A stretch of 64,000 nucleotides of DNA from Acidobacteriaceae bacterium (GTDB taxonomy: Bacteria; Acidobacteriota; Terriglobia; Terriglobales; Acidobacteriaceae), in assembly GCA_027452245.1 (NCBI GenBank), contig DAIDGW010000090.1, positions 19,053 through 83,052 on the forward strand. The letters are read 5' to 3'. The notes under the pieces were generated by a model. It was not told where the DNA came from, did no database searches, and saw nothing but the letters and a program-made list of their open reading frames with translations. Position numbers and translations under genes: made by a program. Of this stretch, positions 59,750 to 62,534 are shown one piece after another; the stretch's first letter is position 1, and each line of letters starts with the position of its first letter.

Positions 59750-61711
59750 CTAGTTCGAACTCTCCAGCACTTGCGAGAGTTCTTCCCACTCCTTCATCAG
59801 AGATGTCAGCTCCTGCCGACGAGCCTGGAGAGCCTCGCTTTGACGCAGCGTTTCTTCAGCGCTGACAAATGTCATCAGCGATGCTTCAGATTGTGCAATG
59901 GCGCTCTCTGTGCTTGAGATGGATTCCTCAATCTGCCGAATACGATCTTCCATCTGTTTGCGCTTCATGGGATTGAGGCGCTTCCCAGCGGCGTGCTCGG
60001 TCTGGCTGTCGCCATTCAATGGCTCGGCGACAACCGCTTTAATTGGGGTCGCAAGTGGAGAAGTTGTCAGGCCCGGCACATCGTCGAGCGTTGGCGCATA
60101 TTCCTGGCCACCCTGCTTGCGCCAGAGATAGTCCTCGTAATTGCCGGGATAAATCTCGACTTTGCCGCCACCCACCTCAAATACGCGTGTCGCCAGCTTG
60201 TCGATGAAATAACGATCGTGAGATACGAATACGACTGTACCCGTATATTCCATCAGTGCATTGAGCAAAACATCTTTGGCACGCAAATCCAGATGGTTTG
60301 TCGGTTCGTCCAGTAGAAGAAAATTCGCAGGGTGCAGCAACATCCGAAGCAGCGCGTATCGCCCGCGCTCTCCTCCGGAAAGGACCCCGATTTTCTTGAA
60401 TACTTCATCCTCGGAAAACAAAAAACATCCGAGCAAATTGCGCAGTTCGGTCTCGCTGGAGCGGGGCGAGACAGTTCCTAGGTCATCAATCATGCGCGCT
60501 TCGGGATCGAGTTCCTTGTACTGATCCTGCGCAAAATAATCCGACTGGACGTTGTGTCCGAGCCGGAATTCTCCCGCCGTGAGAGGTTCGGAACCAGCCA
60601 GCAGCTTGATAAGCGTTGATTTTCCAGCACCATTCACGCCCACCAGGGCGATACGGTCCCCGCGCTCGATCATGAAGCTCACGCTCCGAAAAACTTCTTT
60701 CTCTCCATAGCTTTTTGCAACTTGCTTAAATTCGGCAACGATTCGGCCGCTGGGCTTGGGCTGGGGAAAAGAGAAGTGAATCGTCTTCTCTTCCGGCGGA
60801 ATCTCAATCCGCTCCATCTTCTCCAGTTCTTTAACGCGGCTCTGGACCTGTTTGGCCTTCGTTGCCTGGTAACGGAAGCGATTAATAAACACTTCCAATT
60901 GCTCGATGCGCTCGCGCTGGTTGCGGTAGGCCGCCTGCAATTGTTCGTTACGCTGTGTTTTCTGCGCCAGGAACTTGTCATAATTCCCGGTGTAAAACCA
61001 CATGCGCTTGTTCCAGATTTCCGCAATTTTATTGACTGTTACATCCAGAAAATAGCGGTCGTGCGAGATCAGCACGAACGCATGCGGGTACTCGTGCAGA
61101 TATTCTTCCAGCCAGTTACGCGCTTCGAGATCGAGGTGATTAGTCGGTTCGTCGAGCAGAAGCAGTGTGGGCTTCTGCAAGAGAAGCTTGGCCAGTGCCA
61201 GGCGCATCTGCCACCCACCTGAGAATTCTTCGGTCAGACGGGGCCAGTCATCTTTACTAAAGCCAAGTCCCATCAACACGCGCCCAACTTCAGCTTCGAT
61301 GGAGTATCCATCTCGAGTGCGAAATTCATGCTCCAAGCGGTGATAGCGATCGGCGATGTTTTCGTATTCCGCACTTGTGTGATCCACTTCCGCCATGCGA
61401 TGTGTGAGCGATTCCAGTTCTTTCTCTATGGCACACAGGTCGTCGAATACCGACATGCACTCGGCAAAAACCGTGCGTCCGGAAAGGCTCAATCCATCCT
61501 GCGGCAGATATCCAGCGGACGTGCCCTTAGCCACCGTCAGTGACCCATAGTCGAGCGTGTCCATCCCGGCAAGCGTCTTCATGAGCGTGGACTTCCCTGT
61601 ACCGTTCGCACCCACCAGTCCAATACGGTCATGCGGCGTGATCAGCCAGTCGACATTTTCAAAGAGAAGCTTGTGGCCGAAGCGTTTTCCGGCTCCAGAA
61701 AGCTGAATCAT
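59750..61711 (-). CDS. ABC-F family ATPase (Uup/YheS-like)
   Basis: 653 residues, two ABC domains and no membrane segments. Walker A motifs are GANGTGKST and GVNGAGKST, signatures are FSGGWQMRLALAKLL and LSGGERGRYALLRML, and Walker B motifs are LLLLDEPTNHLD and FLLLDEPTNHLD. The inter-domain P-site linker (RYQATKAKQVQSRVKELEKM) and a C-terminal coiled coil are visible. ABC-F proteins act on the ribosome; the C-terminal arm points to Uup/YheS rather than EttA. Confidence 0.95.
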   Translation of the reverse strand: MIQLSGAGKRFGHKLLFENVDWLITPHDRIGLVGANGTGKSTLMKTLAGMDTLDYGSLTVAKGTSAGYLPQDGLSLSGRTVFAECMSVFDDLCAIEKELESLTHRMAEVDHTSAEYENIADRYHRLEHEFRTRDGYSIEAEVGRVLMGLGFSKDDWPRLTEEFSGGWQMRLALAKLLLQKPTLLLLDEPTNHLDLEARNWLEEYLHEYPHAFVLISHDRYFLDVTVNKIAEIWNKRMWFYTGNYDKFLAQKTQRNEQLQAAYRNQRERIEQLEVFINRFRYQATKAKQVQSRVKELEKMERIEIPPEEKTIHFSFPQPKPSGRIVAEFKQVAKSYGEKEVFRSVSFMIERGDRIALVGVNGAGKSTLIKLLAGSEPLTAGEFRLGHNVQSDYFAQDQYKELDPEARMIDDLGTVSPRSSETELRNLLGCFLFSEDEVFKKIGVLSGGERGRYALLRMLLHPANFLLLDEPTNHLDLRAKDVLLNALMEYTGTVVFVSHDRYFIDKLATRVFEVGGGKVEIYPGNYEDYLWRKQGGQEYAPTLDDVPGLTTSPLATPIKAVVAEPLNGDSQTEHAAGKRLNPMKRKQMEDRIRQIEESISSTESAIAQSEASLMTFVSAEETLRQSEALQARRQELTSLMKEWEELSQVLESSN

Positions 61712-61790: not shown

Positions 61791-62534
61791 ATGCCATCAT
61801 TGCGGGCAGCTTTTAAGCGCCGAAAGGGACGATATTCTTATCTGCTGGCGTTCATGTTGGTGCAGTTGGTCTTCTCTCCCTGGACCGAGACGGGCGGAGC
61901 CAGAGGAAGGATCGTAAGCATTCTGGCGGCTGGAGCAGTGCTCGCGGCACTCTACTCCATCAGCGGAGGGCGTAAGGTTTGGATTGCCGGTATCGCACTT
62001 GCCATCCCGGCCTTCCTTCATCGTGTTACTGCTTCCCCGGACCTCAGAGGCTACATTCCGCTCATTGGCTTGGGACTTTCAATCTTCTTTGATGTATTCA
62101 TCACCGTATTCATTTTGCGGGAAATCCTGGGCCATGACGACATTACCAGCCAGACTATATTCGGGGCGCTTTGCGCATATCTGACCTGCGGCTATGCCTT
62201 CGCGCATCTATACATGCTGCTCGTTCACCTGCAGCCGGGCTCCTTCGTTCTCGACCCGCATCTGTTTCGGCATTCCAATGTTACGCAAGCTGATCTTACG
62301 TTCTATAGCTATTCAACTCTGACCGCCCTGGGGGCCAATGGAATTTCGGCCGCTGCTCCCTATGCGCGCTGCATCAGCATGATAGAGGCGATACTCGGGG
62401 TTATGTACTTGACAGTACTGTTGGGACGATTAGTCGGATTGCATGTATCTCAGCGGATAACGACTTCGCAGAAAGTAACCCATCACCTGCAAGAAGCGAG
62501 CGCGTCAGCAGAAATACATCGTAAGGTTTATTGA
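61791..62534 (+). CDS. two-pore-helix-type ion channel protein with a non-canonical filter
   Basis: 247 residues with six hydrophobic segments (about 15-35, 42-58, 64-80, 88-112, 120-145 and 195-225). A pore helix and filter region reads TFYSYSTLTALGANGISAAAPYAR, where K+ channels of this group normally read TLTTxGYGDITP. Here Gly181-Ala182-Asn183 replaces Gly-Tyr-Gly and the Asp is Ile/Gly. The following helix (ILGVMYLTVLLGRLVGLH) is typical of the Ion_trans_2 family. Selectivity for K+ is therefore doubtful. Confidence 0.85.
   Translation: MPSLRAAFKRRKGRYSYLLAFMLVQLVFSPWTETGGARGRIVSILAAGAVLAALYSISGGRKVWIAGIALAIPAFLHRVTASPDLRGYIPLIGLGLSIFFDVFITVFILREILGHDDITSQTIFGALCAYLTCGYAFAHLYMLLVHLQPGSFVLDPHLFRHSNVTQADLTFYSYSTLTALGANGISAAAPYARCISMIEAILGVMYLTVLLGRLVGLHVSQRITTSQKVTHHLQEASASAEIHRKVY

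Follow-up and report, generated by a model that had tools for sequence, protein, structure and literature searches.

What does a potassium-channel-like protein do when the filter that should choose potassium reads GANG in place of GYGD? This question is raised by one gene in a 64,000-nucleotide stretch of DNA from an Acidobacteriaceae bacterium (contig DAIDGW010000090.1), referred to here as the window. We find that more than 30 acidobacterial relatives retain an altered filter under selection, so these proteins probably form a pore that lets cations through with no preference for potassium. The gene occupies 61791..62534 on the + strand (stop codon included) and encodes 247 aa (TQADLTFYSYSTLTALGANGISAAAPYARCISMIEAILGVMYL). 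Its open frame, its homologues in the class, an Ion_trans_2 match and an AlphaFold model identify the product as a K+-channel-like six-helix membrane protein of the pore-loop type. The Ion_trans_2 (PF07885) match of the window protein (E=0.0072, 16.6 bits) lies below the curated Pfam cut-off of 22.5 bits; among relatives that share the altered filter, all 13 members searched matched the family at relaxed E, with values down to 1.6e-8. In an NCBIfam search the only match of the window protein was a PTS subunit far under its cut-off, and a phmmer comparison of this protein alone with the PDB turned up nothing beyond carnocyclin, a chance match.

The structure model and column counts place the pore helix at residues 166-178 (QADLTFYSYSTLT; 62286..62324, + strand), directly ahead of the altered selectivity filter ALGANG (residues 179-184; 62325..62342, + strand), which stands where canonical channels have T-x-G-Y-G-D. 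The filter codons, GCC CTG GGG GCC AAT GGA, fall within 62300-62420, where the sequence-only reading had proposed a K+-channel-like pore-loop protein that has lost the filter Tyr and second Gly. The channel-like fold is borne out by alignment, fold matches and profile matches, and the two losses by the alignment with GYGD relatives, in which TALGANGIS pairs with TTLGYGDIT without a gap, as does the wider frame (TLTALGANGIS vs TLTTLGYGDIT). Read along the filter, T has become A, L and G are unchanged, Y has become A and G has become N; in addition, Gly stands in place of the Asp of GYGD, a point absent from that reading. A misaligned loop or a GYG elsewhere in the protein would have spoken against the proposal, and neither was found: the translation contains no GYG or GFG, and a scan for G[YFLM]G gave a single match, GLG in the fourth transmembrane helix (TM4). 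The K+-selective signature TxG(Y/F)G is therefore replaced at the filter by ALGANG.

AlphaFold was used to model two proteins, both as monomers built from 13 sequences: the window protein (pLDDT 82, pTM 0.72) and a typical relative with an altered filter (pLDDT 80, pTM 0.76). In each model the last transmembrane helix is preceded by a pore helix and its loop, the C-terminal layout of the pore-loop superfamily. The pore-lining last helix, placed by the model and the KirBac3.1 alignment, covers residues 190-223 (62358..62459, + strand; modelled as helix over 190-246), and by column counts its R193, E199 and hinge-position G203 are conserved as in canonical relatives. The best 50 Foldseek matches in the PDB are all pore-loop channels, including hERG, KvAP, SthK, HCN, GORK and KirBac3.1, at weak E-values (best 0.027 for the window model and 0.0023 for the relative). 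KirBac3.1 gave the best pore-domain superposition (~2.1-3.6 Å over ~100-116 residues) and was also the best PDB match of a profile of the altered-filter proteins (E 0.006), centred on the pore loop and spanning the filter and last helix; a wider profile that includes GYGD members matched Lmo2059 and many K+ channels. A TLEALVG-like pore-lining helix is common to KirBac3.1 and the altered-filter proteins. However, a KirBac subunit has two transmembrane helices and, besides a canonical GYG, carries a large cytoplasmic domain; the window protein, at 247 aa with six transmembrane helices and a short tail, lacks the large C-terminal Kir domain that characterizes KirBac and NirBac inward rectifiers. 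Nor is it a Kv-type voltage-gated channel, as TM4 (LRGYIPLIGLGLSIFFDVFITVFILREI; residues ~87-113; 62049..62129, + strand, from the model and column counts) has no S4-type Arg ladder.

Within the genus and order, 12 relatives were found with 23-39% identity to the window protein, most of which retain GYG, while the closest (G034, 39% identical) reads GAVG. Scanning genome contigs with the window protein as a single sequence gave no matches; profiles were needed, one made from the window protein and the G034 relative and a second from 13 proteins, and these brought up further members in the family, class and phylum. Two short peptide patterns identified further members in named Acidobacteriota records (Acidobacteriaceae, Silvibacterium, Granulicella, Sulfotelmatobacter and Acidiferrum), the acidobacterial range being where matches arose rather than a proven limit. 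With duplicates and two fragments removed, the analysed set holds 32 altered-filter proteins: 17 read GAAG, 4 GASG, 3 GAVG and 2 GANG, with GPAG, GSPG, GSAG, GTPG, GASS and GATG once each. GYG is found at the filter in 0/32 and GYGD is absent from all, whereas their nearest relatives retain GYGD. Conservation of GAN among homologues, which the sequence-only reading had put forward as a check, holds only in part: a GxxG filter runs through the whole clade, but GANG itself is one of the less common forms of this conserved motif, which usually reads GAAG. The wider Ion_trans_2 family, annotated as 'ion channel' or 'potassium channel family protein', shares the 6-TM layout and pore-loop surroundings with the clade and occurs in Acidobacteriota and, in other phyla, on plasmids; the three plasmid relatives that we read have GYGD or GFGD, as do most acidobacterial relatives, whereas the clade is set apart by GxxG (usually L-G-A-x-G) and by new invariant residues. 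In the open-access literature on acidobacterial and non-canonical prokaryotic filters we found no description of a GxxG clade. One record titled Betaproteobacteria (L077, CAJCHZ010000035.1) carries the acidobacterial channel; horizontal presence in that group was considered and rejected, as the identical protein occurs in L089/G658, a genome that the search assigns to the class of the window, and the title is probably wrong.

In a maximum-likelihood tree of 74 proteins, filter included, the 19 altered-filter proteins then known form one group (support 100/91) whose deepest branch is the window protein. An 88-protein tree built without the filter columns also unites the later set of 32 (SH-aLRT 85). 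Chance is excluded, because 32 divergent proteins with a GxxG filter group together even when those columns are left out, and the filter change is an ancestral and conserved trait of a clade, beyond the single protein noted before. That the filter instead reflects a decaying gene or a sequencing artefact is extremely improbable and already refuted for the clade. The long branch of the window protein (1.14 in the 74-protein tree) would fit decay, as would a few altered-filter genes that seem to be broken by frameshifts or stops in metagenome-assembled genomes (L082:2352-3108 in G974, L123 in G879 and L088 in G661); against this, the window frame is open, the proteins form one clade, like filters are present in single- or few-contig genomes (G436, G774, G668 and G836), and the Nei-Gojobori pairwise dN/dS is 0.13-0.27 in the eight clade pairs with the lowest dS, a sign of purifying selection.

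Constraint is also seen column by column. The filter glycines G181 and G184 are present in 32/32 and 31/32 clade members and A182 in 28/32, with position 183 variable (A, S, V, N, P or T). In the pore helix S173 (32/32) and T178 (31/32) are kept, as are R193 (31/32) and the S6 hinge-position G203 (30/32) of the last helix. The position equivalent to T75 (KcsA numbering) is Ser in 19, Ala in 5, Thr in 4, Glu in 2, Gln in 1 and Cys in 1. The conserved filter glycines and low dN/dS, together with residues newly fixed in the clade, argue that the GxxG pattern is one of rebuilding and not of decay.

The sequence-only reading had left a choice between a relaxed cation channel and a non-conducting sensor. 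We favour a conducting pore that is not K+-selective, since conservation extends over the pore helix, the glycines of the filter and the one at the gating hinge, the clade is under purifying selection and there are precedents; a sensor is less favoured. Specifically, with a probability of about 0.52 and by analogy with characterized channels, the protein would assemble into a homotetrameric cation pore in which the inner x-L-G of the filter is intact and the outer half rebuilt. Each subunit would contribute a six-TM pore-loop unit with no voltage sensor, and in the clade the filter would have passed from T-(L/V)-G-Y-G-D to (S/A/T)-L-G-A-(A/S/V/N)-G. The retained x-L-G should still offer backbone carbonyls corresponding to the canonical S3 and S4 sites and bind dehydrated cations there, with a weaker S4 site where Thr has become Ala. 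The outer S1 and S2 sites and the Tyr/Asp hydrogen-bond cuff would have given way to small residues and hence to a wider, more flexible outer filter, so that the pore could conduct monovalent cations and discriminate little in favour of K+, much like NaK, CNG, NirBac and NaKTs. A weak point of the analogy with S3 and S4 is that some members have lost the Thr hydroxyl: at the S4 site the window protein has Ala, and three members have Glu or Gln instead.

The precedents differ from the clade in several ways. NaK, with the filter TVGDGN, is described as non-selective with only the S3/S4 sites (PMC9822992), and a second report also finds that it retains S3 and S4 only (PMC8689586). NaK and CNG channels keep the inner T-x-G, lose the outer GYG and are non-selective, and the clade likewise keeps an inner x-L-G; however, they belong to another family with DGN or ETP in the outer filter, and in the clade Ser or Ala often takes the place of the Thr. 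NirBac proteins, K+-channel homologues whose filter has been replaced, as in the clade, have been demonstrated to conduct cations non-selectively (PMC4607889), but they are few, have unrelated P-loops (one with the filter TTGTD) and form a different family, whereas the clade spans a broad set of proteins that conserve a new motif. NaKTs of Tsukamurella paurometabola resembles the window protein in having an altered filter; its filter LPMGNGPLSP, with a G-N-G core, was shown to be non-selective, and the study that described it identified no similar filter in any other channel (PMC5052707). NaKTs is a Ca2+-dependent 2-TM channel, in contrast to the 6-TM, many-membered clade with its G-A-N/A-G core. 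Known bacterial relatives of K+ channels with altered filters (NaK, NirBac, NaKTs) are small in number and in many cases stand alone. With a single ancestral change, GYGD proteins as close relatives and >30 diverged members, the broad clade provides a natural experiment on which residues must change together in the rebuilding of a K+ filter. It also allows a direct test of whether a tetrameric channel needs the outer half of its filter to fold and conduct.

Small residues in the outer filter could also be compatible with a collapsed, closed loop. The main rival to the cation pore, which we judge unlikely, is a non-conducting sensor or scaffold that uses the pore fold for assembly and conformational switching and signals by conformation with its filter closed. 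In favour of this, every clade member lacks the Tyr, second Gly and Asp of the canonical filter, and clade-specific invariant residues away from the pore suggest a new function elsewhere: D101 in TM4 (32/32 in the clade and 0 in GYG relatives), P156 (32/32 vs 4%), H161 (31/32 vs 3%), D168 (32/32 vs 19%) and P73, likewise invariant. D101, P156, H161 and D168 are clade-defining together with the filter, and the window protein has them all. However, the filter glycines and pore helix are still among the most conserved columns, a soluble effector domain is missing from the 247-aa protein, whose tail is short, and within ~6 kb no genetic partner is conserved. Alternatively, the pore may be tuned to a substrate other than K+ (Na+, NH4+, H+ or Ca2+), its selectivity element being the strict GxxG together with a D168/H161 outer mouth. 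This would explain why the new motif is itself conserved and co-occurs with D168 and H161; we consider it rather unlikely, as the acidic filter ring of Na+ and Ca2+ channels is missing and position 183 varies. Unlikely too is the broader proposal that GxxG, a co-evolved D168/H161 outer mouth and D101 in TM4 make up a new selectivity or gating element, defining a class either selective for an ion other than K+ or operated by protons or pH, with a single origin from a GYGD channel and spread in Terriglobia.

The gene stands alone, with a divergent ABC-F-type ATPase on one side and a convergent NUDIX gene on the other. The ATPase (59750-61711, - strand), 79 bases from the channel gene, has two ABC domains and an ABC_tran_Xtn linker. 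We considered a conserved operon and rejected it: up to ~6 kb, no neighbour family recurs in at least 3 of the 22 altered-filter loci, disregarding frames that overlap the channel gene itself and chance antisense frames. A partner could also come from within the family. Co-assembly is usual among pore-loop channels and many genomes hold a second family member, so the protein might act as a modifier that joins canonical GYGD paralogues in mixed channels and reduces or changes their conductance. This is quite improbable, because in the window genome (97.6% complete) the family profile retrieved no other member, making a required within-family partner unlikely; three other Ion_trans_2 genes in that genome were not among its matches. 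Several genomes lack a canonical paralogue: G791 and G836 have one match listed each, and both matches in G668 are altered-filter proteins. The cation pore could thus plausibly work as the window protein alone.

Filter change is not confined to the GxxG clade. The 88-protein tree requires 9 changes between GYG and non-GYG, indicating that filters drift in the whole channel family. A second small clade (L013:910-1734, L105, L112 and L114; support 100/92) has one filter residue deleted, TVG-SD vs TVGYGD, and its sister L113 has GYGD. A third, from the window's own genus (L004, L007, L008, L010, L011 and L023), reads GYGG, with GSGG in one member, and sits on a very long branch of 2.1 changes per column. 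Additionally, single members (L006, L111, L012, L100, L101 and L110) carry filters of the TVTYGD/SVTYGD type, TVSYGD, TVEYGD, TIGYSG, SLGLGD and TIGSAD, a diversity showing that this acidobacterial family tolerates filter change unusually often.
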